Part shown: positions 4,578-28,127 of the stretch, piece after piece
Numbering within the stretch: the stretch's first letter is position 1
How the letters are laid out: each line of letters starts with the position of its first letter
Source: a virus
IMG/VR virus record: IMGVR_UViG_3300030329_005427
Location: 1-28,335 of that record
Direction: 5' to 3' (one strand)
DNA: 28,335 nt
Made by a program: the position numbers and the translations under genes
The notes under the pieces: generated by a model
The model's input: only the letters and a program-made list of their open reading frames with translations
The model's database searches: none
Told to the model about the DNA's origin: nothing

Positions 4578-6197
4578 ATGCCAGAAGACATTCTATATTC
4601 ATCTGGGTCGAATATTGGCACATTTGCCGATAATGCGGCCCCTGGTGCCCCTAGCGGGTACTCTGGTGGATCTCCTGTTGACACTGGTGATCTTCGTAGA
4701 AAATACGATTTTAGTGATCGTGTATCGGAGCTCGCTGTGTCCCAGGATCCATTTTTTCGCTTTGTAAGTAAAGTAGCGAAAAAGCCAACCGATGATCCTC
4801 AGTTCAAATATACAGAACGACGAGGTTCATGGCATAAGCGTTATGCCTATCCAGCTGGATTTTCAGCTGATGACTCAACATACACATACATAGGCGCTGT
4901 TTCACTTAGTACGATAGCTCTGCAAACAGCAGATACTGTTTTCTACGTGAAGATGGCTGGCGACTATAAGAATACTGGAAACATTGGAAATATTTACGGT
5001 CAGACCGACGGAGAAGTAAAAATTGGTTCTGATGGTACAGAGCCTAAGTTTTTCCTAGTAGACCAATTAGTTCGCATACCTTTAGCAAGCGCTGAAGGTG
5101 GTACTCCAGTAGACTATGTAGTAGCTAAGGTTCTTACAGTGACTGAAAGTGTAGGTGCTGGTGATAAGAATCAGAAAGACAGCACAAATGAGATCGCTCA
5201 TACAAAGCTGAAGCTAAAAGTTGTTAAAGGTTGTTCTGCAATTTCATCTAATGCATACATCCCTAGACTAAAAGCACCAGCAGCAGCATCCAATTTTGTT
5301 GGTGTTGCTACTCATGGACTAGCAGGCGCAAGTGTAGTGAAAGATAATCACACGACTGGAGCATCTGCAAAGAGCCTTGATCATGCATTCTTAGAAGATC
5401 TAAGATGCTATGTCATGGGTACAACCTTTGATAAAGGAACTGGTTATCCAGAAACCTGGAAAGATCAGCCTTTCTCAACTGGTTACGGACAAACTCAGAT
5501 ATGGAAGACAACCATGTCAATGACTAATACTGACAGGGCGACTAGCCTAAAGTATGAGGGCAATGAGTGGGCGCGTATCTGGAAAGAAAAGCTCATTGAG
5601 CACAAGTTCGATATTGAGCAATCATTGTTGTTTGGTTCTCAAAACTCCACTCATCGTACCACTCAAGGTGCGGTAGACTGGGTAGTGAACAATGGAAATG
5701 TGTTCTCATGGAGCACCAGCAAGGACGCAGATGGCTTCTTAGAAGATATGTCTGCATTGCTTGATCCAAGATATGCAGCTGCAAATGCAACTGTATTTTT
5801 CTGCTCAACAGCAGTCTATAACTGGTTGCATCAACTAGGTGGCTACTTTTCACAAAATGTCAATATCAATGATCAATTCCGTGCAGACCTTGCTGTAACT
5901 GGTCGCAAAAAGGTTCTTGGCCTTGATATGACAAGTATCATGACACCATTTGGTGGAATGAACGTAGCTAGAAATATCCATTTGGATGGAACAGATGTAG
6001 CAATTCTAGGTGTTAACCTAAAGAACTGTGCTTATCGTCCTCTAGTGGGTAATGGCTTGAATCGCGATACTAGCATTTATGTTGGTGTCCAAACGCTTGA
6101 AAACAGTGGTGTTGACCGTAGGGTTGACCAGATCCTTACCGAAGCTGGTATGGAATGGTCTATGCCTGAGTCTCACTCTGTTTGGAAAGCGACATAA
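4578..6197 (+). CDS. major capsid protein (HK97 fold, SU10/DUF5309-like)
   Basis: A 539-residue protein, by position and content the shell subunit. The N-terminus is Gly/Ser/Pro rich, followed by a helix (DLRRKYDFSDRVSELAVSQD, about 36-55) and FKYTERRGSWHKRY (about 73-86), resembling the N-arm and E-loop of HK97-type coats. An extended beta-rich region (about 110-230) may be an insertion. The stretch around QTQIWKTTMSMTNTDRATSL, LKYEGNEWARIWKEKLIEHK and DIEQSLLFG (about 303-354) matches the spine-helix region of DUF5309/SU10 family coat proteins as I know them. P-domain-like sequence follows to the C-terminus (VWKAT). Its AAAGGAG site, 8 bases before ATG, and the terminator that follows two genes later fit a highly expressed gene. 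Family name is from recollected consensus; capsid identity is strongly supported by context. Confidence 0.88.
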   Translation: MPEDILYSSGSNIGTFADNAAPGAPSGYSGGSPVDTGDLRRKYDFSDRVSELAVSQDPFFRFVSKVAKKPTDDPQFKYTERRGSWHKRYAYPAGFSADDSTYTYIGAVSLSTIALQTADTVFYVKMAGDYKNTGNIGNIYGQTDGEVKIGSDGTEPKFFLVDQLVRIPLASAEGGTPVDYVVAKVLTVTESVGAGDKNQKDSTNEIAHTKLKLKVVKGCSAISSNAYIPRLKAPAAASNFVGVATHGLAGASVVKDNHTTGASAKSLDHAFLEDLRCYVMGTTFDKGTGYPETWKDQPFSTGYGQTQIWKTTMSMTNTDRATSLKYEGNEWARIWKEKLIEHKFDIEQSLLFGSQNSTHRTTQGAVDWVVNNGNVFSWSTSKDADGFLEDMSALLDPRYAAANATVFFCSTAVYNWLHQLGGYFSQNVNINDQFRADLAVTGRKKVLGLDMTSIMTPFGGMNVARNIHLDGTDVAILGVNLKNCAYRPLVGNGLNRDTSIYVGVQTLENSGVDRRVDQILTEAGMEWSMPESHSVWKAT

Positions 6198-8747: not shown

Positions 8748-9629
8748 ATGATATGTCCTTATTGTTCTTCAATAAAAGTAGTAAAAGAAGGTACTCGAAA
8801 AACGAAAAAAGAGAATTACCAGCGTTTTTCTTGTCAGAAATGTGGGAAATGGTATCAAGTACCTTTTTCTCAAGCAGAATTAAACAAAAATGGAATTGTT
8901 GAGCCAGGTAGCCTCCTTTCCTTTAAGTTCGATGGACCTATTAAAGTTCACGGTGCTACTGATGTTCATCATGGTGCAGCTGAGCATAGCTGGAGCCATT
9001 TTGACGAATTTATTGAGGAAGTGGACGCAGACCCACGAGCAAGATGGTTCTTGAATGGAGATAATATTGAACTTATACCACCGAATTATAAGATTCCTCA
9101 AAGAGGTCAATCAATGGAGCCCGATGAACAGCATATATCATTTAGAAAGAGAATTGAGAAGATTGCAGATAAACTTCTTTTTATTCGTGGTGGTAACCAT
9201 GATTTTATCAGGAGCGTTAACATTCTAGGCTTTGATGTATCTATGTTACTCGCTGATGATTTAAAGGTGCCATATTTTAAAATGCCTGGATATACTAGAA
9301 TCGATATTAATGATAAGTCTTGGTACTTAGTTAGTGGTCATGGTAAAAGTGGTGGTAAAAATGGGGATCTAGAACTAGATAAAATGGCTGCAGTTTATAG
9401 CCAAGGAGATGTTTTTTTTCTTGGACATAATCATCAGCTGTATGCTAAACCTATTGACTCATTGAGGGTTGAAGGTAGTGAGGAAAAACTTCATAGGAGA
9501 TGGTATTGTAGAGGAGGATCATTCTTGAATTATGCGGAATATGCTCGATATTCATTTTATCCTATGATAAGAACAGGTTGGGTTACAATGGAATTTGGAC
9601 CCAAGGTAATTAAAGCATGGGCTAATTAG
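8748..9629 (+). CDS. zinc-ribbon metallophosphoesterase in the virion operon
   Basis: A 293-residue protein. Residues 3-32 form a CPYC...CQKC zinc ribbon (Cys3, 6, 29, 32). Residues 65-293 carry calcineurin-like phosphoesterase motifs in the right order: DVH (D72, H74), GDN (D105, N106), GGNHD (N150, H151), SGHG (H198) and GHNH (H227, H229). These would bind two metal ions and cleave a phosphodiester or phosphomonoester. The ribbon resembles those of InsA-like and other DNA-binding proteins, so a nucleic-acid substrate is a reasonable guess, but nothing fixes it. The gene sits inside the connector and tail block, its ATG directly follows the previous stop, and AGGAG precedes it. It may be a virion component or an assembly or defence-countering enzyme (for example against nucleotide-signal or DNA-modifying defence). 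The enzyme class is firm; the role is open. Confidence 0.88.
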   Translation: MICPYCSSIKVVKEGTRKTKKENYQRFSCQKCGKWYQVPFSQAELNKNGIVEPGSLLSFKFDGPIKVHGATDVHHGAAEHSWSHFDEFIEEVDADPRARWFLNGDNIELIPPNYKIPQRGQSMEPDEQHISFRKRIEKIADKLLFIRGGNHDFIRSVNILGFDVSMLLADDLKVPYFKMPGYTRIDINDKSWYLVSGHGKSGGKNGDLELDKMAAVYSQGDVFFLGHNHQLYAKPIDSLRVEGSEEKLHRRWYCRGGSFLNYAEYARYSFYPMIRTGWVTMEFGPKVIKAWAN

Positions 9630-13541: not shown

Positions 13542-14039
13542 ATGGCTAGTAAGGCTGAAGAAAAATATGGTGTAGAATTTGGCGAATGGTATGCATTGCA
13601 TGAAAATGAGTATGATGAGTTTTGGTCAACAGAAAGGACTGAGATGGAAAATGCATATAAGCAATGGAAATCCTTAAATAAAACATATCAACCAATGATA
13701 GATGATCTCCAAGATCAATATGATGATCTTACTGCTCTAACAACTTCTGCTCATTATAGACCAGAGATAGGGTTCCAAATACAAGCTGGCGCTAATAAAG
13801 CAGAATCTATGTGGTCAGGATCCACTAGGAAGTTATTTAATACAAAAGCTGGATCTACGATGATTGCATCTTCTGGTATAGCTTCCACAATGAAGGATAT
13901 AGAAACCTCCTTTAATAGCATTATGGATAATACTATTTATAGCACATATTCTGATGTCCAAAATAAAATAAGCGGAGCTAAGGATCTACAGAGGCAAATA
14001 CAGAGTGATATTAGAGGATATGAAAGGGAGTTAGTATGA
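13542..14039 (+). CDS. helical virion-cluster protein, hypothetical
   Basis: A 165-residue protein that is mostly helical. The first 70 residues are aromatic and acidic (EFGEWYALHENEYDEFWSTE), followed by a coiled-coil-like segment (YKQWKSLNKTYQPMIDDLQD), a Ser/Thr/Gly-rich middle (AGANKAESMWSGSTRKLF), and a C-terminal helix (VQNKISGAKDLQRQIQSDIR). There is no membrane helix. The stop overlaps the start of the following 642-residue gene (ATGA), and the ATG has an AGGGGG site embedded in the previous stop region. Coupling with the two neighbours suggests an internal core or ejection subunit. No family is recognised. Confidence 0.65.
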   Translation: MASKAEEKYGVEFGEWYALHENEYDEFWSTERTEMENAYKQWKSLNKTYQPMIDDLQDQYDDLTALTTSAHYRPEIGFQIQAGANKAESMWSGSTRKLFNTKAGSTMIASSGIASTMKDIETSFNSIMDNTIYSTYSDVQNKISGAKDLQRQIQSDIRGYERELV

Positions 14040-15964
14040 GCGAAGCACTATCAGCATTAAATCAACTAGTTGGCTTAGTACGAGAGGATATACAGCAAAA
14101 ATATAAGGCTAGGGATACAGCAGCTGCACGTGATTTTGCTAGAGAAAATTTATTTATCCAAACAGGATTAAAGGAATTAGAGCAATCTAGAGCAACTACA
14201 TCAGCATTAGAAGCAGATGCTGTAAATAAAGGTTTGAATATTAATGCAATTGAATCATTAAATGATATGCAACAAACAAATGAAGCTAGAAAATTTGCTA
14301 CAAAAAGTTTAGAAGATGTTAATGTGGCTCTTAAAGGGGAATCGGATTATCAGAGATCTATTAAAAAGAATTTATCAGAATTTTCTAAGGGACAGATTGA
14401 CTTTGCTAGCGTAGATAGAGATACGTCTGGCACAATTTCCGATAAAGAACTTGGAAGGCTTACTACGACCGTATATCGAGATGAAGAACTCCAACATACA
14501 ACTCCAAGTGCTGCTTATATACAGGGATTGAGGTCAAAAGAGCTTACTGCTATTCAAGCCACAGATCTTGCCAGGAAAAAAGAAGATCTCTCTCAATTAA
14601 AAACTATTGGAAAGGATTTAGATAAGAAGAGCAAGTTAGAATTACAGATATTGCAACAGCAATATGAAACTGGCGAAATAAATAAAAAAACACTTAGTAA
14701 GAAGCTAGAAGCTCTTGGGCTTGAGACTGATTTCCTAAGAGATACCCAGGAAACTAGAAAGGGTATATTAGCCGAAGAATACAAAAAAGCAAAAACTTCG
14801 AATGATATCCTTACAATAAAATCAAAATACACAGAGCAAGAAATAAACGCAGCCTTAGCTAATGTAGATGCTGAAACTCGAAATAGGTTAAAAAATCTTG
14901 GATTAATAGATTTAAGCATCGAAGCTCAAGCACTTGCAAATGAAAAAGAAAAAGTGAAATTGAGATTTCTAGAAGGTAGTTTAGAAAACCAAGAGAAATT
15001 AGAAAAACTAAATTTAAATATGTCTGCCGCGCAACTGGAACAATTAGATGTAGCAATAAGTACAGCTAAGGTTGGCTATGAAATGGCAAAGAAAGAACTT
15101 ATAATGACTGATGTTAAAAATGAGAATCTAAAAAGGAAATGGGAAAAAGAGGAGTGGGTATTCGAAAAAGAAGTTATGGATAAAACTATTACTGACCAGC
15201 AAAAACTTATTGCGGATGTTAATAGTAATGCTATTAAGTTAACTACGTTTGCTTTATCTCAGATGTCTTTTATGAATTTTAAAACAAACGAAATAAAGCC
15301 AATAGTCAATATGATGCAAGAGTTACAAGCTCAAGCTGCAGCAGGAGATGTGAGCAAATGGGAAGGGGATTTTGAAGAATTTGTTTTAGAGAATCCAATA
15401 TATGAAGCTATAGCAGATGATTTAAAAGATTTATTTTCAGCTACAATACAAATTGATGATACTACGCCTAAAAGCGATCCTTTACTAAGATTAGCACCTC
15501 AGATCGATATGATGAGTAAAGAGTTACAATCATGGTCGCAAAGCGATGCTGGAAAAAGTGCTCTTGAAGCGTTTAAAAAAGAGTATATTGCTAGTCTTGC
15601 AGGTAGAGGGGCTACTCAAGATTTCTCTGAAAAACAATGGATGGATATTTTCTTGAGATCTAGTTCATCAACTGCCCCTAGATGGCAAACTACTCTTAGT
15701 AATTTGCATTATAATAATTTTGGAGTAACTGATGAGCAGGCTGAGAAATTTAGAAAAGCAATGGCTTGGCAGGAAACAGGTATATATAAAGACAAAGATC
15801 TGTTTAAGGAGATGGTATCACTAGCAAAAACTAAGCCTGTTTATGAAAAACAACTATCTATGTTTCTAAAAGATGCTTCATATTATAATTTAGGTGAGCA
15901 TGAAAGTTATGATAGTATGACTGATGAACAATTTGAAGCATTTCTAGATAGTCTAGATAATTAA
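14036..15964 (+). CDS. large helical virion protein with an EF-hand loop
   Basis: A 642-residue, Lys/Glu/Gln-rich helical protein. After an N-terminal helix, the stretch GQIDFASVDRDTSGTISDKE holds a perfect EF-hand calcium loop, D127-x-D129-x-S131-G-T133-I-S-x-x-E138. The central part (about 180-390) is one long coiled-coil-like region (for example KKSKLELQILQQQYETGEIN), and the C-terminal 200 residues are mixed. There is no signal peptide or membrane helix. The position between the internal virion proteins and the giant RNA polymerase-like protein suggests an internal core or ejected protein, similar in place to T7 gp15. The EF-hand lies alone in the N-terminal part, so calcium binding might be a structural or sensing switch at ejection. 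The gene starts by ATGA overlap and is followed after 7 bases by the giant gene. Confidence 0.7.
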   Translation: MSEALSALNQLVGLVREDIQQKYKARDTAAARDFARENLFIQTGLKELEQSRATTSALEADAVNKGLNINAIESLNDMQQTNEARKFATKSLEDVNVALKGESDYQRSIKKNLSEFSKGQIDFASVDRDTSGTISDKELGRLTTTVYRDEELQHTTPSAAYIQGLRSKELTAIQATDLARKKEDLSQLKTIGKDLDKKSKLELQILQQQYETGEINKKTLSKKLEALGLETDFLRDTQETRKGILAEEYKKAKTSNDILTIKSKYTEQEINAALANVDAETRNRLKNLGLIDLSIEAQALANEKEKVKLRFLEGSLENQEKLEKLNLNMSAAQLEQLDVAISTAKVGYEMAKKELIMTDVKNENLKRKWEKEEWVFEKEVMDKTITDQQKLIADVNSNAIKLTTFALSQMSFMNFKTNEIKPIVNMMQELQAQAAAGDVSKWEGDFEEFVLENPIYEAIADDLKDLFSATIQIDDTTPKSDPLLRLAPQIDMMSKELQSWSQSDAGKSALEAFKKEYIASLAGRGATQDFSEKQWMDIFLRSSSSTAPRWQTTLSNLHYNNFGVTDEQAEKFRKAMAWQETGIYKDKDLFKEMVSLAKTKPVYEKQLSMFLKDASYYNLGEHESYDSMTDEQFEAFLDSLDN

Positions 15965-15971
15965 TATAAGT

Positions 15972-18900
15972 ATGGCTTTAGATCTATATAAAAAAGAACA
16001 AATTCGCTCAATGTTCTTGGCACAAGGGCGATATGTAACAGATGCTCAAATAGAGGAGTATTACAATAAAGCCCAAGCGACTCAAGCAACTCAACCAGAA
16101 GAACCAGAGTTATGGGACCCTCAGGAGCCTACACTTGCTTCGGCATACAACGATGAATCAACTCTCGAACAAGCGCTTGAAGCAACAGCTAATCTAGTCT
16201 GGGGAGGTCTTGATACTGCCTTAATAGGCTTGCCAGGGTTAGCTTGGAAGGGAATAGATAAGGAAAGTTATGAAGCTTCAATGGCCGACTTAAATGATAA
16301 TGCCTTGGCAAGAGTTGGTGGTGGTATCGGTGGTGCTCTTGGATTTTTAGCTCCTATGGGATGGTCTGGTAGACTTCTTAGCTACGGAGCAAGAGGTTTA
16401 CGAGGTGCTAGACAAGCTAAGGCTTTAAAAACTGGCGCTACCACAATAGATAAGATAAAGGCGCCTACTACAGAAGCTATACAAACTGCTGCAGGTTCTT
16501 CTTTATTCAAGAGCGCTCAAAAAAGAGCTTCTGATCTCGGAACACTTACTAAGGATGAGGCTATTGAAATAGCTAAAAGAGTATCAGATGATACTATAGG
16601 GTTTAGCTTGACTGGTAAAAAATGGTGGCAAAAGGTCTTTCAAGGTGGCCCAGGATATCAAATGGAGCACGGACTTAGTAGTGTTAATAGATTTAAAGAG
16701 TTAATGAAATTCCAAATGTCCGATAGGTTAGCTGCTGAGTTAGCAGAAAGTGGTGTAAAGTTAACTAATAAACAGATATTAAAAATGTCTGATGATCTTG
16801 TTGATATGCTTGGAAAAAAATCCTTTAATACTATAGATGCAATGATACAAGGTAGTTATATGGGTCGCATGCATCCTGCTTTATTTAATTTATTAGGTGG
16901 AGCTGTTCAAGAGGGCATTCAGTTTGGTCTAGTGGGTACTGCTATGGATGCAGTTCAATATGTAAAAGGAGATCTAGACCTAAATGAAAGATCATTTGGA
17001 GATAGGGTTTTACATCATGTTGCACTTGGTGGTGTTTTAGGTACTATAAAATTTGTACCTGGAGGAGCAAAAACGCCTATATGGAAGAATTTTGTTAACG
17101 CTTCTTCCTTTATGACTAAAAAATTAAATGATAAAGTTGGAAAAATGGGTCTTGAAGAGTTGAAGGCATTTGGCTTAGTAAAAATGAGAAATGATAGATC
17201 TTCTATTTTCTCGATTACTAAAAATGGAAAAACCATTAATCTCACAAGAAAGGATCTGCGTCCAGAGTCAACTACGATCGGCAATGAAAATATTCAATCT
17301 TTACGAAAGACAATTCAAGATCATAATACAATGTTAGCAAAAAGCTTAAGAGGTCCTTATTGGACCAAATTTGCAGCAAATACCCGTAAAGATCTATTTG
17401 GATCCCTTGGTCGTATGTCCCTAGGAGCCGCCTCCATGAATTATGATGCAATTAATTCTGGCGCTTTTGAGGGTTTAGAAGATGCTGAGGTTGCGTTTCA
17501 CCTTGCATTAGGTGCGTTTATGACAAAAAAACATAAACCTCTTTTTAAAGATACAGCTCCTAGAATGGACTTTCATTTTGGAGAACGTGATTATCATTAT
17601 TTTTCAGATATGACAGAGGTATCTAATGCAATTGCAAAAAATTCAAGATATATTAATAATATAGGTTCATTGATCAAGCAATTTGATGGTAACACTTATA
17701 CTGATTGGGTTAATAAATATCCAATTAAAGACGTAGAAAGAATGATCAAGGTGTTGAAAGATAATGATGTTATATATGATAGCTTGGATGGCGAAGTAAC
17801 AGCAAAACAAGTAACACCTGTCCCTCATAGGGAGCTTATGGACCTCCTAGGTCCTATTAGTGCTATTATGACATCTAGAGGATTAAGAATAAATCCTAAT
17901 GCTACTAAAGAGATGCAAGTTAAGGTTTTAGATATAATAAAAAATATGACCTCGGAAGAGTTGACATCTGGAGACCATATAAGAAAGTTAGATTCTAGAG
18001 CTAATGTATTACAATCTGTTTTAGCTGGAAGCCAAAGGAGTATTCAAAAATTTCAAAATGATGCTTACAAGCTATTTGATGATATGTACAAAATAATCAC
18101 AGATGGTGAATATTCTATAACCCCAGAAGGTGAAATGTTTGTTTTTAATTTAAAGCATGAACACCTTGACTTGAATGAACAGCAGAGTCAAACTATTGCT
18201 AAGTTTCTTGAGCTAAAAGAAAATTTACGACAAGAAAATATTATAAAGCTTAGAGAGATTGAACATGGAAAAGAAGCGGGTTTGCAGCATGAAGTAACGA
18301 TGGAAATGATAAATAAGATGGATGAATTTATTAATCGTTATGAAAAAAATCTTGGAGCGGAGATATTAGGTGAGGGTTGGAATGCTCCTGCGGATATTAA
18401 TGATAAGATGCTTTGGTCTTTAGTTAATGAAGTAAATCACCAAAGAAATGTAGTTAATGTTTTTTCGATTATGAATGGGGAAGCAATAACTGGGGTTAAT
18501 GAAGTTGATGCTAAGGAGATACAATCATTGATCAAGCAAGTCTTATCTCATAGAGACAACTTTAATAATGAAATAATGGTTGATAATGCATTAAAGATAG
18601 ATCTAATATTCGATGAAGGCATTAGCATTACACCACAGCAGCAACAAGCATTGCAAAGCTTTATACAAGATCTTTGGAGTATCAATGCAACAGTTAAGGC
18701 TCCTACTGATATTAGGAGAGTTGAGGTCCCAGTATCAAAGGTACTCGCATTAAAAGAAAAATTAGTTAATAATGGTATGCCAGATCATGAGATTCATATG
18801 CTGGATTCTAGAATGGCTAATTGGGTTGAAAAGGCAGTGCAGCACGGTATAGAAAGAGCAACATTAGGTGCTGATATGGAGCCTATTATTGGAGTTGCTT

Positions 18901-21900
18901 TAAAACAGCTAATGAAAAATGGACTTATACAAACTACCACTGATAGTAAAAATAGAGGTGTTAGGCTCGTTGCGCCTAATAAAATAACAGTAGAGCAAGT
19001 AGAACGAATTATACCAAATTTAACTCAGAAAGAAAAGCAAGCATATGTAGATGCATATACCAGAGTTATGGACTCGATTGGGAAAAAATTAGTAGCTAGG
19101 CGAGATGATTTTAATATAACAATGCTAACTGCAGAACAATTATCATCTATTACAACAGCTGATAAGATGTTAGATAAAAATCGATATATAACTGATTCTG
19201 AAGCAAAGGAAAATATAATACTAGAAGCTATAGAAAGAACCAATGTCCGCAGGAATGTTTTACAGGACCAGCTAAAGGATCCTACAATTGAAGATAGTGC
19301 AGCTTCTCAAATACGCGATCTATTGAATTTTGAAACTTCAAAATACCAACAATTAAACGAAATACATCAAGCTTGGAGAGCAGCATTCGCTGGTGGTCAG
19401 GAAATGACTAGAGCTGCAGCATATTTAGAATTTGCAGGTACTACTAGAAATAAAGATGGTAAAAATATATTTGATCTTATTAGGGATATTGAAAAATCAG
19501 AGGATCCCTTTCATAAATTCACAGAAGATATAAAGCAGCTTCAAAATATTATTGCTGAAAAGGTCAATGAGAGACCGAGTGGTAAGAGCTGGGATGAGAG
19601 AAGGAATGATTTTTTAATAGCTGAAGAACAAAGAGAAATTGAAGGTGTTTTACCAGATAATAGAAAACATACTAATCCCGATCTATTTTTTGAAAAATAC
19701 GGAATAGATAAGAATGACATCTTTTCTGTTGGAGAGAAATATTATAGATCAACATTTGAAACTAACGCAGAAGCTCTGTATGAGTTATATAATGAAGTTG
19801 TTGTTACTCAAAATCAAAGTAGGGAAGTTTTTATTGATAGAGTTATGGAGCTAGCTGGAACTAATAGAGCCGAAGCTTCAGCTGAGTTAAGAAATGATGT
19901 TATGGTTTTAAGCAATCTCATGGATAGAAGGTTTAAGATCAAAAGGCTTACAGTTAATCAAACTAGTGGAACTGGAGTATTTGAGAATACAGAGATATCC
20001 AAAGGCTTTTTAACGGATATATGGACAGAAATATTTAGCGGCATTAACGCTCCAATGCTTATTCTAGATAGCGGATATACTAAGAATGGCAAAATACAAA
20101 ATATCTTCACAAGCCCTAACGGATTAAATGAATTAACTCAAATATTATATGGCAATGAATTTTTTGCTACATTAAATCAGGGTGAAAATAGATATATAAG
20201 TTCATTAAAAAGAGGAACGGCAAAACCAATTGAACCAGGTCAAGAAGTATGGCATACACAGAGTCTAGCTGAAACCTATTTAAAAGGAGCAATGTATCCT
20301 GTTATTGTCGATGAGAATATAACAGTTCTTATTCCAGAAGCTCATATATCTCATATTAAAAAACCATTTATGAGGTGGTTTGAAAAAATTGAGAAAGATC
20401 CGTATACTAAAAAAGCCATAGATAAGTTGCCCCAAGCTAAGGAGCTTATAAATGAGCTAAGGAATTATTATGAGATATTTAAGAATGGAGATGGGTCCCC
20501 CGCTTCATTTGTTAAGGATGGACAAAGATGGCAAGAGAGTGTACATGATGCAATTTTTACAATTTTTAATTCTATGTATGGGGAGCGTATTGATGGAGAC
20601 TGGCTTCAAGATGCTTATACTAATGGCCCTGGTCAAAGAAAACATTTTAAATATAAAAGGTTAGCTCAAAACCAAGGATATTCAAGAAATAGTATTGCTC
20701 GACGGGAAACTGCTAAGGCTATTTTTGGTGAAGGTACTGGTAGTAGTGAGTATGAAAAAATATTAATTGAAAAATATGCTGATAGAGAAATAAATAATAT
20801 TTTCGTCGTGGACGATGGTGTTAATAGTGAAATGGGTTCTGCTGCTAACAAATTAATAACAGATAATAGATCAGTTGCTGAGCATAGATTGAAAAGAATG
20901 TATGATAGGGGTGACATTACCAAGAAAGATTATGACGATAATTTAGCATTGCTAGAAAATGCATCTTCTATTAATGCTGAAACTGTAAATGGAATGACCC
21001 CTGTGCGTCGAGAGTATTTAGATTTCCTTTTATTGCAAAATGGTGATGCTGATCTTATAGGAAAATCAGCTGGGCAAAAACCAGTGGGATTAACTTCGTA
21101 TACTGATTCAAAGGGAGTAGTGCATGTTCTTTATAATAAGACTCACTACTTTTATGACTCTAGGCTAGATAAGTTTTTTGAATTGAATCCAGATATAGAT
21201 ATGATTGCATTTACCAGTGGAGCAAAGAAAGCTAAGATCATTGATCCTAATCAGTCCTTGGAGAATCAATTAAAGCCATACGAAGCTATACCTGTTATAG
21301 GCGACCTAATTAAAGATAAAGATGGTGTTGAAAGACAGGTTACTATATATGATATGCTTAATTCATTGAATACTAATGATTCTAAAAGATCTATAATGCC
21401 AGTTAGGGCAGATCAGAGTTTATCAGGTACTGTTTATGGTGAGCATCACAATGCTAAGATATTAAAACAATTTAGTAACTGGACATCACCAGAGGTTCAA
21501 AGAGATCTTTATAGGTACGCTCGTCAAGATATGATAGAACAATTTTCTGAAGTGCAAATGAAGTTTTATAATCCAGAAAATACTGCACTAGCATCAGCAG
21601 AAGCTAAATCCTTCTTAAGAACAGAAGGAAACAAGGATGGAACTATTGCTGTTCAAACTGAAAATGCATCTACCGAGGCTATTTGGATAGAGAATAGTGG
21701 GATTCCTTTTTCGATATCTGGAAATCTATATGATGCTATAATCAAGAAAAGATATGTTGATCAAGCTGGAATTTTTGATGGATTTACAGATGCAGGTGGT
21801 TCAGCAATATTGCGTGGCAATATGGCTATGGATCTAGATATTCCTGTTTATCAGGGCAATGTTCAGGTAAAGTTAGGTGAAGCTAATATCTCAGAGGTAT

Positions 21901-24900
21901 ATTTAGATGCAAAAATTCATAATATAAGTGATTATGGACCTGCTCAAGGAAAGCCTAGGGGTAGAGAAAAGCGTAATTATAAATCTGCAGCTGGAATTAC
22001 ATTAGTAATGGAATTTAGAGGCGATGGCACAGCACCTAGAGATATACTATACGATCTTAAAAAAGGTAAAATATCAGATCCGTTAAATCCTAAAGCAAAG
22101 TTAGAAGACTATAAGACTTTGGCTAATGCCGTTGATAAAATATTGCAAGAAATTAACATGGGAGATGGTAGGGTTTCTACATATAGAGATGTTTATAATA
22201 TCTTAAATGGACATGGAATGAGTAGACCAGATGGGTCACATCCAGTAAAGCTTGGTATCATGGGGTTACCTGCTCCTAGAACTGGTCCACATGATGCAGT
22301 TGTTATGAAGGTAAAGGGCATATTAGATAGAAAAGATGGTGGTATAATGGAGATGAATACCTATGATCTTACCATGAGAGCACAAAGAGACTTTGATACT
22401 GATAAGTTATATTTTTATATGGATACACCATTTTCTGCTATGAGAGAAGCATATAAAATTAACGGTGATGTTAAGGAAGCAAGAACTACTGAGGCATTTC
22501 AAGGTGCAGGGATGCCATTAAATCCATATAATAGACTCAGTATGGAGAATTACACTTCTAATATCAATGAGTATAGGAAGAAATTTGGTCAAGTTGTTAA
22601 GACACAACGCAAAATATCTTTCATGAAGAATTTAATTGATTTAATGGGTACTGAGCCTAATACAAAAAATATACCTATGGATAATAAGGGTGATGTAAGA
22701 TTGGTTGTTGAGCATAACGATTCTGATTTTTTACAAAGACTTGTTTCACATACTCAAGGCGCAGTAGATATTTATGGAGAGAATGGCTTGCCACTTTATT
22801 TAGCCAATATGAAAGCCTGGCAAAGAGAAATACTATTTGGAAGCGATAAGTTCAAAAATCCCATTTTTAAATTAGAAGATAAAAACGGTAATCGATTACC
22901 GATGGAAGAGGTGCATAAGCTTATTATTGAAAAAATGATGAATGACTATGGAAGATTATTAAGCTATGAAGGTAATATATGGGAGGCTGGTGAGTCTAAA
23001 AGGCCGAGATATAAAGATATGATAACTGGAATGGAATTGTTTAACCAGGAATATAGTCCAGATATTATTAATAGAAATTTTTATTATTATATAGAAAAGA
23101 AATTAAGTACAGAAGCAGCTAATGATTTTTTTGGATTCGCCAAAACAACCGAAAAAGGGATTGATCCATTTTTACAAGGCATATCTAAAGCTATGCGTAA
23201 TCATACTGATCCATTTCTAAGATCAATGAGGGCTATTACCAGTAAAGATCAGTTTAAAGTTCGTGAAACATTCAGTCCAGATGGCGAACATTTTAATGCT
23301 ACAGTGCAAAAACTACTAGGTCGACATAGAGCAGAAATGCTTGAAACTTTTAGGCTGGAGCCGCAAACTGGTGGAGAGAGACCTTTATATCTTGAAGGTC
23401 CAAAAGCTGAGACTTTAATTATTGATGAGATGTGGAGAGGTTTTTATAAGGAAAAGAATACTGAAAAGGCTTTAATACAGGCCAATGCTATAGAACATCA
23501 AATAAATTCAATGGAGCGCTTAGTACAAAAAGAAAGTAAAAAACCAGAAGAGATAAGGGATGATGCTTTTATTTCAATGCAAGAAGAAAATATAGCCATC
23601 AAAAGAAAAGCTCTGTCTGTATTGCTTAATAAGCTTACTGTAGAAAAAGATGCTGGATTACCTGGGCAAAAAATGAAGTATTACAAAGCAAAAGGTAAAA
23701 AAGGTCGTAACTATATTCAAGTAAGTGGTAATAATGTGATGATCAAAGATGCTACAAAAGGCACTGAAAAGAAAGTTCAGCTTGATAAAAATGGAGGATA
23801 TATCCTACAACCTAATGAGGTTGCAGTTTATAATCCTATAAAATTAAGAGCTGTGAGGGAGCATGATTTGATTGATGGTGCTGCTTGGGCAAATACAGTT
23901 CTTGGCTACTGGAGCAGGGTCACTGAAGGAGATTTACGAGACTTTAGAAAGTATGTAAAGGAAACGAAAAATGAAATACAAAAGCTTATTTCTGAAACAA
24001 TGGATAATAAGAATTTAAAAGACTGGGAAGCATATGAACATAGGGTCTTTAATGCAATGGAAAGAGGTTTAGAAAATATTCTAAAAATGACAATGGAAGA
24101 ATCTGGATGGGCCTTTAAAGACGCTGAAGGTTTTCCAGGCTATGCGAAATTACCAGCAGGTAAAGAATCTTACTTAATAGACTTTTTAATGGCTATGCTA
24201 ACTCCCAAAGGATCTGGAAATCCTAATGAATTTTATTTTTCTCCTAAAACTGGTGGCTTTATTCCAGCTGTTAAAGCTCAATCGCCTGTTGTTATTAAAG
24301 CTGTAATGCGTATGTTAGATAGTTATAATGTAACACCTAATAAAAATGAATTAGTAGCTAAAATGGCACAAGTACACAGAGGGTTTTATGATGCTATTGT
24401 CGCTGGGGAAGGCTATCATTCCGCATTTGATAGAATAGCAGAACAAAGTTTCGAAGGCGCATTAGTGAATACAATTAAAAATAGAGTAATGCATAGTCCA
24501 TTTATGCAGCATAAAGATTATAAAAAGTTAACTGAGTGGTTGGAACTAGGAACGGGGATGGAAGCTAAGATGGCTGAACTAATGCATCAATTATTAGTGG
24601 ACAATGCTATTATTGATCCAGGTACAGTAATGAGATTAAAAGAGGAGATCATTAATAAACCTGGTGGCGAAGAAGCTTATAAAAGTTTATTTACAGTGTC
24701 TCGTGGACAACTCTTATTCGATGGTCTCAATACAAAACAATTCAGCACTGGAAAAGGTGAAGGTCAATTGGTTGGGGAGTTGACCATGGAAAGACCCGCA
24801 ATTAGAAGTGATAGGATTACTGGTACGGGGCAGAGAAAGAGAGGAACTGAAATTAGTCAATGGCTTCAAGATCAGATTGGCTATGAAAACAATGTAAAGT

Positions 24901-24908
24901 GTGATTAG
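15972..24908 (+). CDS. giant virion protein with a double-psi beta-barrel RNA polymerase core
   Basis: A 2978-residue protein filling 8.9 kb. Residues 1-35 (EQIRSMFLAQGRYVTDAQIE) are a short docking-like helix pair. Gly-rich hydrophobic segments lie at about 77-150 and 296-367, suited to membrane passage. Residues about 370-1650 are helical. Residues 1738-1755 read NPDIDMIAFTSGAKKAK; 2097-2113 contain PAPRTGPHD then VVMK; and D2140-F-D2142-T-D2144-K with LYFYMD follows after MNTYDLTMRAQ. This order, an Arg-x-Gly turn, a strand, then DxDxDK at a strand end, is the catalytic loop layout of DPBB RNA polymerases: DxDGD in cellular and YonO enzymes and, as I recall, DFDID in the crAss-like phage gp66 virion RNA polymerase. 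I infer packaged, ejected early-gene transcription. No T7-type polymerase motifs were seen. Shine-Dalgarno is weak; translation may follow from the previous gene. Confidence 0.7.
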   Translation: MALDLYKKEQIRSMFLAQGRYVTDAQIEEYYNKAQATQATQPEEPELWDPQEPTLASAYNDESTLEQALEATANLVWGGLDTALIGLPGLAWKGIDKESYEASMADLNDNALARVGGGIGGALGFLAPMGWSGRLLSYGARGLRGARQAKALKTGATTIDKIKAPTTEAIQTAAGSSLFKSAQKRASDLGTLTKDEAIEIAKRVSDDTIGFSLTGKKWWQKVFQGGPGYQMEHGLSSVNRFKELMKFQMSDRLAAELAESGVKLTNKQILKMSDDLVDMLGKKSFNTIDAMIQGSYMGRMHPALFNLLGGAVQEGIQFGLVGTAMDAVQYVKGDLDLNERSFGDRVLHHVALGGVLGTIKFVPGGAKTPIWKNFVNASSFMTKKLNDKVGKMGLEELKAFGLVKMRNDRSSIFSITKNGKTINLTRKDLRPESTTIGNENIQSLRKTIQDHNTMLAKSLRGPYWTKFAANTRKDLFGSLGRMSLGAASMNYDAINSGAFEGLEDAEVAFHLALGAFMTKKHKPLFKDTAPRMDFHFGERDYHYFSDMTEVSNAIAKNSRYINNIGSLIKQFDGNTYTDWVNKYPIKDVERMIKVLKDNDVIYDSLDGEVTAKQVTPVPHRELMDLLGPISAIMTSRGLRINPNATKEMQVKVLDIIKNMTSEELTSGDHIRKLDSRANVLQSVLAGSQRSIQKFQNDAYKLFDDMYKIITDGEYSITPEGEMFVFNLKHEHLDLNEQQSQTIAKFLELKENLRQENIIKLREIEHGKEAGLQHEVTMEMINKMDEFINRYEKNLGAEILGEGWNAPADINDKMLWSLVNEVNHQRNVVNVFSIMNGEAITGVNEVDAKEIQSLIKQVLSHRDNFNNEIMVDNALKIDLIFDEGISITPQQQQALQSFIQDLWSINATVKAPTDIRRVEVPVSKVLALKEKLVNNGMPDHEIHMLDSRMANWVEKAVQHGIERATLGADMEPIIGVALKQLMKNGLIQTTTDSKNRGVRLVAPNKITVEQVERIIPNLTQKEKQAYVDAYTRVMDSIGKKLVARRDDFNITMLTAEQLSSITTADKMLDKNRYITDSEAKENIILEAIERTNVRRNVLQDQLKDPTIEDSAASQIRDLLNFETSKYQQLNEIHQAWRAAFAGGQEMTRAAAYLEFAGTTRNKDGKNIFDLIRDIEKSEDPFHKFTEDIKQLQNIIAEKVNERPSGKSWDERRNDFLIAEEQREIEGVLPDNRKHTNPDLFFEKYGIDKNDIFSVGEKYYRSTFETNAEALYELYNEVVVTQNQSREVFIDRVMELAGTNRAEASAELRNDVMVLSNLMDRRFKIKRLTVNQTSGTGVFENTEISKGFLTDIWTEIFSGINAPMLILDSGYTKNGKIQNIFTSPNGLNELTQILYGNEFFATLNQGENRYISSLKRGTAKPIEPGQEVWHTQSLAETYLKGAMYPVIVDENITVLIPEAHISHIKKPFMRWFEKIEKDPYTKKAIDKLPQAKELINELRNYYEIFKNGDGSPASFVKDGQRWQESVHDAIFTIFNSMYGERIDGDWLQDAYTNGPGQRKHFKYKRLAQNQGYSRNSIARRETAKAIFGEGTGSSEYEKILIEKYADREINNIFVVDDGVNSEMGSAANKLITDNRSVAEHRLKRMYDRGDITKKDYDDNLALLENASSINAETVNGMTPVRREYLDFLLLQNGDADLIGKSAGQKPVGLTSYTDSKGVVHVLYNKTHYFYDSRLDKFFELNPDIDMIAFTSGAKKAKIIDPNQSLENQLKPYEAIPVIGDLIKDKDGVERQVTIYDMLNSLNTNDSKRSIMPVRADQSLSGTVYGEHHNAKILKQFSNWTSPEVQRDLYRYARQDMIEQFSEVQMKFYNPENTALASAEAKSFLRTEGNKDGTIAVQTENASTEAIWIENSGIPFSISGNLYDAIIKKRYVDQAGIFDGFTDAGGSAILRGNMAMDLDIPVYQGNVQVKLGEANISEVYLDAKIHNISDYGPAQGKPRGREKRNYKSAAGITLVMEFRGDGTAPRDILYDLKKGKISDPLNPKAKLEDYKTLANAVDKILQEINMGDGRVSTYRDVYNILNGHGMSRPDGSHPVKLGIMGLPAPRTGPHDAVVMKVKGILDRKDGGIMEMNTYDLTMRAQRDFDTDKLYFYMDTPFSAMREAYKINGDVKEARTTEAFQGAGMPLNPYNRLSMENYTSNINEYRKKFGQVVKTQRKISFMKNLIDLMGTEPNTKNIPMDNKGDVRLVVEHNDSDFLQRLVSHTQGAVDIYGENGLPLYLANMKAWQREILFGSDKFKNPIFKLEDKNGNRLPMEEVHKLIIEKMMNDYGRLLSYEGNIWEAGESKRPRYKDMITGMELFNQEYSPDIINRNFYYYIEKKLSTEAANDFFGFAKTTEKGIDPFLQGISKAMRNHTDPFLRSMRAITSKDQFKVRETFSPDGEHFNATVQKLLGRHRAEMLETFRLEPQTGGERPLYLEGPKAETLIIDEMWRGFYKEKNTEKALIQANAIEHQINSMERLVQKESKKPEEIRDDAFISMQEENIAIKRKALSVLLNKLTVEKDAGLPGQKMKYYKAKGKKGRNYIQVSGNNVMIKDATKGTEKKVQLDKNGGYILQPNEVAVYNPIKLRAVREHDLIDGAAWANTVLGYWSRVTEGDLRDFRKYVKETKNEIQKLISETMDNKNLKDWEAYEHRVFNAMERGLENILKMTMEESGWAFKDAEGFPGYAKLPAGKESYLIDFLMAMLTPKGSGNPNEFYFSPKTGGFIPAVKAQSPVVIKAVMRMLDSYNVTPNKNELVAKMAQVHRGFYDAIVAGEGYHSAFDRIAEQSFEGALVNTIKNRVMHSPFMQHKDYKKLTEWLELGTGMEAKMAELMHQLLVDNAIIDPGTVMRLKEEIINKPGGEEAYKSLFTVSRGQLLFDGLNTKQFSTGKGEGQLVGELTMERPAIRSDRITGTGQRKRGTEISQWLQDQIGYENNVKCD

Positions 24909-24916
24909 GGGGTTGT

Positions 24917-27571
24917 ATGGCATGTTTAGCTGATTCGCCATTATGGCATGAAACAAATAAAGCAGAAAAGATGTGGCAAGAGTCTAAATCAATTAAAAGA
25001 TTTAACTTATCGGATGATTTGCATGCATTTAAAAGTTTATTTGAAGCTACAACTGGTAAATTATTAGAAGCTGGTGAAAATATCACAGAAATAGATATGA
25101 GGAAATTCCAGCAAGGTATAACTGAATTAAACAAGGATTTAAGAAATCCTGGGGTTCTTGGTAATAAATTTCTTCGAGCATTTATACCAGGTTTTGCCAA
25201 GGCTAGATGGTCACCCACTACAAAAGAATTTTGGAATAGACTAGTAGAAGGCAACGAGTTTAGGGCGAATAACACAAATGTAATGATGGCCAGTTATAAC
25301 AATATGATCAAATCCTTAAAACAAGCTATGTTAGAGTTTGATGGAATGGGCACGGTACAAGATAAATCAGCTCCTAGATTTGCAATTACTAGCGATCAAA
25401 GGGCTCGTAAAAAGATCATTAATGAAAAATTTAGCAAACTATCAAAGCTAGAAAAAGATCTTGTAATTAAGATGAAGAATGGTGATCCAATTGGGCATAC
25501 AAAAGAATTAGAAGCATTATTTCATTTCTTAGAAAATGACGGTTCTATCTTTAATGATTTTATCGAAAGAGTTGAATCTAAAACAGATCGTGGATTAAGA
25601 TATAAGTACAGAGATCAACTTGGGTCTAGAGAAAATTATATAAATAGGATCAACAAAGCAGCTACTGAATGGGCAAGTATACAAGAGGTTTCTAAAAAAC
25701 ATTTGGTAAGAGGTCTAAGCAATGTTAAAGAAACTATAAAATTAAAATATGGTAGATTAAGTAATACAGCTCAAAAACTTATTGATGAATATACTGCTGT
25801 TGAGAAAAATTTAGAATCAATAGAGGGTGGGTATATACCTCATTTTGTTATGGATATTATGGGGCAAACGATGACTCTTCCAGAAGCATTAGGCAAGGTA
25901 ACAACTACTAAGGAAGTAGAAACTATTCTCGCTAAGCATGTAGCAGAGGTTCAAGATATTAATGTGGGTTTAACACAAAGATTGAAGAAAAGATCTAAAG
26001 AAGATAATGAATATTTTTCAAGAAATCCAATGTTATATGCTCATAAATATATAGAGCAGGTAGCTTCATTTAATCACAGCTCTCATATTAATAGAGCTTA
26101 TGTACAAGGATTGAAAGATATAACTGAGGTTATACTACGTAATCCAAATACAAAGGAAGCTCAAGCAGCTGAGGTTTATTCAGACGTGTTAAGATCAATG
26201 TATGACAAAGCCGTATCTACTCAAAGAGTTGAAGATGCAGGTACAAAAGAGAATCTTACTAGAATTCTTACTTCACTTCAGTTCACTTCAAAACTAGGGT
26301 GGTCAACAAGAGGTGCGCTAAGAAATTCAACTCAACAATTGTTAAATAGAGTTTATTGGAATATACTAGCTCAAACTAGGGCATCAAGAGAGTACGATGA
26401 AAATGCTACCTATAAAGAAGGCCTGGATAAGCAAATGGCAGAAAAGGGATTAATGTTTCTTGATATTGCGTCTATTACAGAAGGTGCACTTGCAAATACC
26501 GATCTTCTTGCTTACGGTATTGACTTAGATAAAGGTATTCTTACATTTAGGGATCAAAAAAATATTTTAGAAACTATAGCTCAAAAATCTAGTAAAGTAG
26601 CAGAGCATTCAGCTGTATTTACAAGACGTGCTGAGAATTATAATAGAAGAAGTACTTTTAAGACTGCTTACCATCAACGATATTTACAATTAAAGAACTT
26701 AACTAAATACGCTAATGCAGAATTTGATTCAAATATCAGAGCTCAAATGGAAGCTGCTGCTGGAACGTATGCTAGTCGGATGACTAATTTACTTCATTTT
26801 GAATATTCGAAATTTGGGAAGTCTGATGTACTAGCAAGTAAGACAGGATCTGTTTTAGGCCAATTTCAACATTATGCTTTTTCATTTGCTGATCTACAAT
26901 TTAAATTAGTTAAAGATTGGAACAGGGCTAGAAAAGCTGGTGATTGGACTGGAGAAGAATTTGCTCGGATCTATCGAATGGCATTGTTGCATAGTTTGAC
27001 AAATGTTATATCGGGACTTTCTGATATTGATTTTACAAGTTATATAAATAATGATACATTAGATAGAGTAGTTCAATTAGCTACATTTCTTACAGGCGAT
27101 GAAGAAGCAAGTAAGGATGCTTTTTACGGCAAGGGACTTGTAGGTGCATCTGGAATAGTTCCATTAAATGATGCAGTTGAAATATTGAATTTAGGTGTTG
27201 CTGCAGGATATTGGGATATGCTTGCAGATGAAGATAGCACTATAGGATGGCTAACTGGAATGCGTGAGTATGAAAAGATCGATGATCTTGAATTTGCTAA
27301 GGAAGTTGCTGGTATGGGCAGTATTCAATTAGAAAGAACATTAAGAAAAAGCTTACTACCTTTATTTAATTCCATGGCAGGGGGTGATGAATTTAGTTTA
27401 TCTGCGGCATTAAGAGCAGAGTTTGGGCTTTACCCAGGCACAACATCTCTTGGGATTAAAACACGGGATATGTCAAAAAGAATGGATGAATTGCGACAAG
27501 GTAAAAAACCTGTTGGTAAATTGTCTGAGAGGAACAGAAGAAAAGCATTAAGTGCAATAGCTAATTTATAA
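24917..27571 (+). CDS. large internal/ejected virion protein, partner of the giant protein
   Basis: An 884-residue helical protein starting eight bases after the giant gene, with AGGGGG before its ATG. It has no signal peptide. Two segments stand out: K459-LGWSTRGALRNSTQQLLN (about 459-477) and Q649-FQHYAFSFADLQFKLVKDW (about 647-668), both resembling conserved segments of large polyvalent-type and internal virion proteins (LPD38-like by memory of the consensus, not tested). The last 200 residues hold mildly hydrophobic helices (LLHSLTNVISGLSD and FYGKGLVGASGIVP) and a basic end (KLSERNRRKALSAI). In crAss-like phages the virion RNA polymerase is next to other very large virion proteins; the same arrangement here suggests co-packaging and co-ejection. 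It ends at the bidirectional terminator. Function stays inferential. Confidence 0.65.
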   Translation: MACLADSPLWHETNKAEKMWQESKSIKRFNLSDDLHAFKSLFEATTGKLLEAGENITEIDMRKFQQGITELNKDLRNPGVLGNKFLRAFIPGFAKARWSPTTKEFWNRLVEGNEFRANNTNVMMASYNNMIKSLKQAMLEFDGMGTVQDKSAPRFAITSDQRARKKIINEKFSKLSKLEKDLVIKMKNGDPIGHTKELEALFHFLENDGSIFNDFIERVESKTDRGLRYKYRDQLGSRENYINRINKAATEWASIQEVSKKHLVRGLSNVKETIKLKYGRLSNTAQKLIDEYTAVEKNLESIEGGYIPHFVMDIMGQTMTLPEALGKVTTTKEVETILAKHVAEVQDINVGLTQRLKKRSKEDNEYFSRNPMLYAHKYIEQVASFNHSSHINRAYVQGLKDITEVILRNPNTKEAQAAEVYSDVLRSMYDKAVSTQRVEDAGTKENLTRILTSLQFTSKLGWSTRGALRNSTQQLLNRVYWNILAQTRASREYDENATYKEGLDKQMAEKGLMFLDIASITEGALANTDLLAYGIDLDKGILTFRDQKNILETIAQKSSKVAEHSAVFTRRAENYNRRSTFKTAYHQRYLQLKNLTKYANAEFDSNIRAQMEAAAGTYASRMTNLLHFEYSKFGKSDVLASKTGSVLGQFQHYAFSFADLQFKLVKDWNRARKAGDWTGEEFARIYRMALLHSLTNVISGLSDIDFTSYINNDTLDRVVQLATFLTGDEEASKDAFYGKGLVGASGIVPLNDAVEILNLGVAAGYWDMLADEDSTIGWLTGMREYEKIDDLEFAKEVAGMGSIQLERTLRKSLLPLFNSMAGGDEFSLSAALRAEFGLYPGTTSLGIKTRDMSKRMDELRQGKKPVGKLSERNRRKALSAIANL

Positions 27572-27601: not shown

Positions 27602-27820
27602 TTAATCAGCGTATATTCTATTTTCGTTTTTTATTGTTTTACTAAGATCCATTATTTGAGATAGCATTGTATCTATATTTAATGATAGATTGATCAATCT
27701 TTGTTCTAATTCACATAGATCTTCTAATGTAAACTTTTTTTCTCTTCCTAATATTTTACCACATAAATAATCAATACTGTTAATTGAATTATTAAATTCC
27801 CTACTTAAGTTTTTTTTCAT
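27602..27820 (-). CDS. small helical protein, hypothetical
   Basis: A 72-residue protein of mixed charge, all helical by look: MKKNLSREFNNSINSIDYLC, then GREKKFTLEDLCELEQRLIN and LSLNIDTMLSQIMDLSKTIK. It has heptad-like spacing of Leu and Ile, two Cys (20 and about 35) and no membrane segment. It is the last gene of the minus-strand block, overlapping the upstream nuclease gene by 20 bases and ending by the convergent terminator. The overlap suggests co-translation with the nuclease. A small nuclease or replication accessory protein is possible, but nothing shows this. Confidence 0.6.
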   Translation of the reverse strand: MKKNLSREFNNSINSIDYLCGKILGREKKFTLEDLCELEQRLINLSLNIDTMLSQIMDLSKTIKNENRIYAD

Positions 27821-28127
27821 ATTTCTTTACCTTTAATAATAATTCTAAATAATCTTCATAAGGCATTACCACTAATGGCATACCTCTGTCTTCTTTAATT
27901 AATTGAATGTCTACATTTTCATTAGGTATCATCCATTCTGCAATTTTAGCTCTACATTTACATTGAACTTTAATTGTATTATCGATTAAAACATCAACTT
28001 CTTCATGGTGGCCTAGGGCAGCTCCATTACTGCCCCAAGCTCTTTTTGCTGGGATTCCAGCTTCTTTTGTTAACTTAACCACTAGACGCTCAAATCTATT
28101 ACCTTTTTGCTTACTCTTGTTGCTCAT
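27801..28127 (-). CDS. PD-(D/E)XK nuclease, Hjc-like Holliday junction resolvase
   Basis: A 108-residue protein with the short Hjc-type resolvase plan: KGNRFERLVVKL (E13), AGIPAKRAWGSNGAALG (about 23-39), EEVDVLI (D45), then KVQCK (Q55, K57). This gives the E...D...(E/Q)xK metal-binding set of the PD-(D/E)XK fold, with Gln where Hjc usually has Glu. It would nick branched DNA such as replication or recombination intermediates before packaging; phage homologues with the KRAWGSNG and VQCK phrases are annotated as resolvases or nucleases. It overlaps the following gene by 20 bases and the preceding one by an ATGA. It is on the minus strand, so it belongs to a different expression class from the virion genes. 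Confidence 0.8.
   Translation of the reverse strand: MSNKSKQKGNRFERLVVKLTKEAGIPAKRAWGSNGAALGHHEEVDVLIDNTIKVQCKCRAKIAEWMIPNENVDIQLIKEDRGMPLVVMPYEDYLELLLKVKKYEKKLK

Follow-up and report, generated by a model that had tools for sequence, protein, structure and literature searches.

It is established that crAss-like phages, the Thermus phage P23-45 and some jumbo phages carry RNA polymerases with two double-psi beta-barrels in their virions. The polymerase of crAss-like phages is a virion component that is injected with the DNA and transcribes the early genes (PMC7886860, PMC10172136), and P23-45 ejects a tail protein to which a two-barrel polymerase is fused, gp64 and gp96 having been biochemically proven (PMC10770324). 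This report deals with the IMG/VR record IMGVR_UViG_3300030329_005427 (the window, that is, the whole stretch of 28,335 bases analysed), and in particular with a giant open reading frame (ORF) that starts with ATG and encodes a protein of 2978 residues. We consider it highly probable that this is an internal protein which podoviruses of about 50 kb eject, that it holds an active crAss-type two-barrel RNA polymerase, and that it makes their early transcripts. An earlier note on this DNA had proposed such a polymerase from three motifs, all of which lie exactly where it placed them: DIDMIAFTSGAKKAK begins at residue 1741 (nt 21192), RTGPHD at residue 2103 (nt 22278) and DFDTDKLYFY at residue 2140 (nt 22389).

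Match of the giant protein to crAss-like RNA polymerases

A DxDxD motif alone is no evidence for a polymerase; composition predicts 0.8 copies in a protein as long as this one, and support beyond the motif is needed. Even DxDxDK is present in 5% of shuffled copies of the giant protein. The protein belongs to a family of about 3,000 residues that Pfam and PHROG models do not recognise (the giant protein matched neither set), and searches of solved structures by sequence, with the single protein and with a profile, likewise returned none. Hydropathy indicates no transmembrane segment in the window protein.

The evidence is strongest for the second, metal-binding barrel. A total of 80 loci encoding relatives of gp66 of phage phi14:2 were taken from IMG/VR and 64 core sequences were aligned as the crAss profile, while a hidden Markov model (HMM) covering 65 columns of the second barrel was built from crAss-like phage RNA polymerases alone (the phi14:2 gp66 family). 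This crAss-only HMM matches residues 2096–2150 of the window protein with 15.8 bits (5.4e-7 in a one-protein search), and 488 shuffled or reversed decoys reach at most 3.7 bits against 15.8–18.0. When 2099 ORFs from all the loci analysed were scanned blindly, the window's family came directly behind the crAss polymerases (15.8–18.3 bits, E 4e-5 to 4e-4, the window protein itself at 4e-4); the best unrelated ORF obtains 5.3 bits, about 10 bits under the family, and gp64 and gp96 of P23-45 remain below the family with 3.7 and 2.5 bits. Comparison of profiles with hhalign points to the same segment: the full 2978-column family profile, with no region chosen, has its best match to the crAss profile at 2102–2150, against the DFDIDKMY segment; among sliding windows, those that include residue 2140 score best; and a template made from the more divergent crAss-like sequences gives 32.0 at 2096–2150, where 300 column shuffles reach 24.1 at most. 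Homology of the second barrel to the crAss-like virion RNA polymerase is statistically supported, and the polymerase reading of the metal loop is upheld by the HMM match, the far lower decoys and three invariant aspartates. Upstream of this core, a pairing of AGGSAIL (1941–1947) with crAss NGGSFIQ was made by eye only, is not recovered by automatic alignment and is tentative. One divergent crAss-like polymerase locus (L092, frame from base 3; 44 bits) has the metal loop DFDVDSLFV, which lacks the usual lysine after the third aspartate.

For the first, lysine-bearing barrel, homology to the crAss enzyme is supported by exact register and is weak by score. The best position of the first-barrel crAss HMM in the whole window protein is 1741–1755, at a score of decoy level (HMMER), and the best hhalign match of residues 1690–1765 is the crAss loop around gp66 K1065. 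K1703 and K1752 align with the invariant crAss lysines K1012 and K1065 of gp66, K1703 (in GQKPVG) being an invariant lysine additional to those of the earlier note. The window segment IDMIAFTSGAKK aligns with IDMINFESGVKV (L082) and IDMVNFESAVKI (L102) of divergent crAss-like polymerases, and IDMIAFTSGAKKA corresponds to IDMINFESGVKVG or IDMVNFESAVKIG in such enzymes. Eight out of eight MAFFT settings pair K1752 with K1065 of gp66 and D2140 with its D1361. When eight family and 50 crAss sequences are aligned jointly, the only invariant columns are K1703, K1752, P2102, D2140, D2142, D2144 and K2145; as aligned, this set is the expected active site of a two-barrel polymerase, with lysines in one barrel and the metal loop in the other. 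The order put forward in the earlier note, a lysine barrel followed by a DxDxD barrel, is that of gp66, the lysine loop lies in exact register in all alignments, and the DFDID loop that the note gave for phi14:2 gp66 is correct (DFDIDKMY at residue 1361 of the gp66 record).

Homologues of the giant protein occur in eight IMG/VR contigs at 36–97% identity, scans with the protein, the core region and the alignment all yielding the same small family: a twin contig (L002, 97%), two members at about 60% (L004, L005) and five at 36–50% (L006, L008, L007, L009, L010). Where complete, the family proteins have 2957–3096 residues. An independent exact DNA-pattern scan of IMG/VR for PRTGPHDxxxxK recovered these eight contigs and no others. 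A tblastn search of 50,697 phage records gave no significant match (Flavobacterium phage matches at E 7 were rejected as chance), and GTDB genome contigs contain no relatives of the giant protein. Invariant residues cluster in blocks 1701–1750 (21/50) and 2101–2150 (22/50), other blocks having 0–11. Every homologue, down to 36–40% identity, retains D2140/D2142/T2143/D2144/K2145, R2103-T-G-P-H-D2108, K2113 and S1749-G-A-K1752-K1753 unchanged. The three aspartates that the earlier note singled out are therefore conserved in every homologue, and of the lysines it located at 1752–1755, K1752 and K1753 never vary while K1755 does.

Predicted fold, proposed mechanism and alternative readings

From this homology we infer a double-psi fold, in which the first barrel would give K1703 and K1752 and the second the DFDTD metal loop at 2140–2144. 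The giant RNA polymerases to which the window protein is homologous are virion components in phi14:2 and phi-crAss001 (PMC7886860, PMC10172136). By analogy with crAss-like phages (PMC7886860, PMC10172136) and P23-45 (PMC10770324), the giant protein would be packed in the capsid head of these podoviruses (about 50 kb), leave it together with the DNA or before it, threading through portal and tail in a partly unfolded state, and would transcribe the entering early genes before or without the host RNA polymerase. Refolding would take place at the inner membrane.

Several results weigh against this reading. The first-barrel score alone is not significant, about 2% of shuffles doing equally well. 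The distant members L006–L010, taken singly, are at or near noise with the crAss-only HMM, so that the statistical link to crAss runs through the window protein, its twin and L004/L005 and reaches the others by the family alignment. An AlphaFold model of residues 1330–2500 from the family alone has a mean predicted local distance difference test (pLDDT) score of 52, and with this low-confidence model no PDB match and no useful fold match was obtained; addition of crAss sequences for residues 1660–2200 raised the pLDDT only to 58.5, with a predicted template modelling (pTM) score of 0.54. Profile comparison of residues 2145–2480 yielded no credible match for a bridge helix or trigger loop.

The joint-alignment model is consistent with a polymerase but is not independent evidence, because crAss sequences are in its alignment. 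Foldseek searches with this low-confidence model give mostly RNA polymerase large subunits as best matches in PDB, none below E 0.001, and crAss-like polymerases among the best viral matches in BFVD. Structure prediction, which the earlier note had suggested as a check, leaves the fold unproven at these confidences and revealed no contrary fold. The only strong Foldseek match of the joint model is an unnamed viral protein, BFVD A0A516L9L2_2 (4e-8, 18% identity over 522 columns); it may be a closer relative, or may stand between the window family and the crAss polymerases.

The loop could be an acidic motif that arose by chance or convergence in an unrelated structural protein that binds metal, as the compositional expectation for DxDxD and the failure of AlphaFold to confirm the fold would allow, but the HMM match (5e-7 over 55 residues), with shuffles and decoys well below it, and the independent register of the lysine loop in the correct order make this extremely improbable. 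A further alternative is a giant ejection protein whose barrels descend from a polymerase but are no longer active, its present role being solely that of a structural or channel protein. The threonine in place of glycine at the third loop position and the strong divergence outside the core favour such a loss; glycine, however, is absent from crAss polymerases too (DFDID), and two lysines and three aspartates are invariant at 36–40% overall identity, in the most conserved parts of the protein, and we regard the loss of activity as very unlikely.

Another explanation retains the two-barrel enzyme and places it outside the virion, made in infection for transcription of late genes, for which YonO of phage SP-beta, acting from inside the cell, is the precedent (PMC5467207). 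In its favour, no second RNA polymerase is recognised in the available contigs, a result subject to possible incompleteness of the contigs and to one failed control; PF00940 (T7-like RNA polymerase) has no match in nine contigs, nor in the control genomes. Against it, the gene is placed midway along the late structural operon, with genes for probable internal proteins on either side and in the slot of the Zobellviridae internal virion protein D, and the polymerase core is embedded in about 3,000 residues, like the virion polymerases of crAss-like phages, N4-related phages and P23-45. We judge a non-virion enzyme unlikely, and an injected virion polymerase remains the preferred reading. When the early region of the twin contig was searched for repeats that might mark a promoter specific to the polymerase, only A+T-rich chance repeats emerged.

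Genome context and affiliation of the phage

A single operon encodes the portal (P22 type), an SU10-type capsid protein and a tail protein, followed by proteins of 208, 165, 642, 2978 and 884 residues (Table 1). In the Zobellviridae phages ICP2 and ICBM2, internal virion protein D (1416–1484 residues) comes after the tail protein and small proteins and precedes a protein of 660–676 residues; the giant protein occupies the gene-order slot of this ejected protein, and the position supports its presumed packaging in the virion. The giant protein has no significant sequence similarity to Zobellviridae internal virion proteins, and the 884-residue protein has no significant sequence match.

Table 1. 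Location of the features of the giant protein and of its neighbours (window coordinates)
Feature	Position	Strand	Basis
Giant ORF, 2978 residues: predicted ejected internal virion protein with RNA polymerase core	15972..24908	+	Homologues of 2957–3096 residues in related contigs
Putative core of first (beta-like, lysine) barrel, residues 1696–1760: GQK1703PVG...YNK1723THYFY...IDMIAFTSGAK1752K1753	21057..21251	+	Densest block of invariant residues; lysines align with crAss
Tentative first strands of second barrel, residues 1940–1990 (AGGSAIL...IPVY...LGEANIS)	21789..21941	+	Likeness to crAss NGGSFIQ by eye
Putative core of second (beta-prime-like, metal-binding) barrel, residues 2096–2150	22257..22421	+	crAss-only HMM 15.8 bits, 5.4e-7; best of 2099 ORFs apart from crAss polymerases
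Turn P2102-R-T-G-P-H-D2108 ahead of metal loop; resembles crAss YRIPNQ	22275..22295	+	Invariant in family; P2102 invariant in joint alignment; pattern scan finds family only
Predicted metal loop D2140-F-D2142-T-D2144-K2145, equivalent of gp66 DFDIDK 1361–1366	22389..22406	+	Invariant in family and in joint alignment with 50 crAss polymerases
Portal protein, P22 type	1289..3586	+	PF16510 5.9e-50; phrog_156
Major capsid protein, SU10 type	4578..6197	+	PF17236 3.2e-21; phrog_1328
Metallophosphoesterase-like protein with N-terminal zinc ribbon, inside structural operon	8748..9629		phrog_7339, 8e-20
Tail/neck protein, 874 residues	10094..12718	+	Position and weak structural PHROG matches
Probable partner internal/ejection protein, 642 residues, directly upstream of giant ORF	14036..15964	+	Position only; no family match
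Probable partner internal/ejection protein, 884 residues, directly downstream of giant ORF	24917..27571	+	Position, cf. Zobellviridae 660–676-residue protein; no significant sequence match
Probable PDDEXK endonuclease, Holliday-resolvase-like	27801..28127	-	PF24608, 1e-5, just under cut-off

Portal, terminase and gene order agree with the podovirus-like phage that the earlier note had envisaged. The terminase, encoded in the twin contig, has its closest relatives among Zobellviridae podoviruses at 24–26% (best 15 of 607), no crAss record is among the matches of the portal, and the capsid protein is of SU10 type, so that the structural genes do not place the virus in Crassvirales. A Shine-Dalgarno core precedes 14/22 window genes, compared with 1/20 in phi14:2 and 20% of random 20-mers, in support of the earlier suggestion that the host type may differ. 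This usage, together with the terminase, portal and capsid results, speaks against both membership of Crassvirales and a typical Bacteroidota host. The giant gene itself has no obvious Shine-Dalgarno site at 15952–15971 (TCTAGATAATTAATATAAGT), while most window genes have one; it may be translated by coupling to the gene before it.

The early region of the 97% twin contig lies on the opposite strand and encodes primase-helicase, Sak4-like, ThiF-like and JAB-like proteins, with the terminase further on. The adjacent ThiF/E1-like (PF00899, 3e-22) and JAB-like (Prok-JAB, weak) proteins, at L109:12565-14590 (twin G001:32565-34590) and outside the window, are also side by side in G006 and G007, as judged by sequence start, and possibly form a phage counter-defence or ubiquitin-like module. 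The twin contig further encodes (L109:16705-18102) a 465-residue protein with DUF7788 and DUF2828 (phrog_850, called RNA-binding; 1e-87).

Sequence comparison supports the view of the window enzyme as a divergent crAss-type variant in a phage group where it was unexpected, and the family of about 3,000-residue proteins gains a name. Active-site sequences of crAss type in an uncultured short-tailed bacterial virus that does not look crAss-like suggest that injection of a polymerase is probably used more widely than has been recognised. With somewhat better than even confidence, we propose that non-crAss podoviruses of about 50 kb, with hosts outside Bacteroidota, have their own branch of the crAss-type virion polymerase in the ejection-protein slot of related podoviruses, that the enzyme is far older and more widespread than Crassvirales or else has passed from one phage to another, unrelated one, and that it couples DNA entry to host-independent early transcription. 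If true, a crAss-type enzyme would exist in small podoviruses that have unrelated structural genes and start sites of the Shine-Dalgarno kind, and the injected polymerase would not be tied to Crassvirales or their hosts. With its DFDTD loop and RTGPHD turn, the family also adds a second and highly divergent set of sequences from which the residues needed by a minimal two-barrel polymerase can be sought; the candidates from the joint alignment are the two first-barrel lysines, P2102, the three loop aspartates and the lysine that follows them.

Comparison with known polymerases and internal virion proteins

Known systems share different aspects with the window protein. The virion RNA polymerase of N4 is T7-like and its fold is unrelated to that of two-barrel enzymes. 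The N4 type (Schitoviridae) resembles the window family in strategy, its podovirus capsid carrying a polymerase of about 3,400 residues (PMC10925440). YonO of Bacillus phage SP-beta is likewise a single-chain two-barrel RNA polymerase with a DxDxD loop, but it has 839 residues and the loop DNDGD, is not fused to a virion protein and has no similarity to the window protein that could be aligned. Internal virion protein D of Zobellviridae (ICBM2 gp36, ICP2 gp6) shares the gene-order slot and the following protein, whereas it is about half the size and lacks a conserved DxDxD loop.

Thermus phage P23-45 gp96, a virion polymerase fused to the tail tape, also has two barrels within a giant virion protein (PMC10770324); however, gp96 and gp64 (loops DFDGD/DYDGD) are less similar to the window family than crAss enzymes are, and the polymerase of gp96 resides in a tail tape measure, that of the window in a predicted podovirus internal protein. 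The closest counterpart is the crAss-like polymerase phi14:2 gp66 (PDB 6VR4), in which a lysine barrel precedes a DxDxD barrel in one chain, K1012/K1065 and D1361/D1363/D1365/K1366 align with K1703/K1752 and D2140/D2142/D2144/K2145 of the window protein, and the giant protein is encoded within the structural gene block. The two differ in loop and turn (DFDTD and RTGPHD in the window, DFDID and YRIPNQ in gp66) and in size (about 2960–3100 residues in the window family, 2180 in gp66), overall identity being 13–18%, and, unlike crAss-like phages, the phages of the window family have an SU10-type capsid, a P22-type portal, a Zobellviridae-like terminase and Shine-Dalgarno sites.

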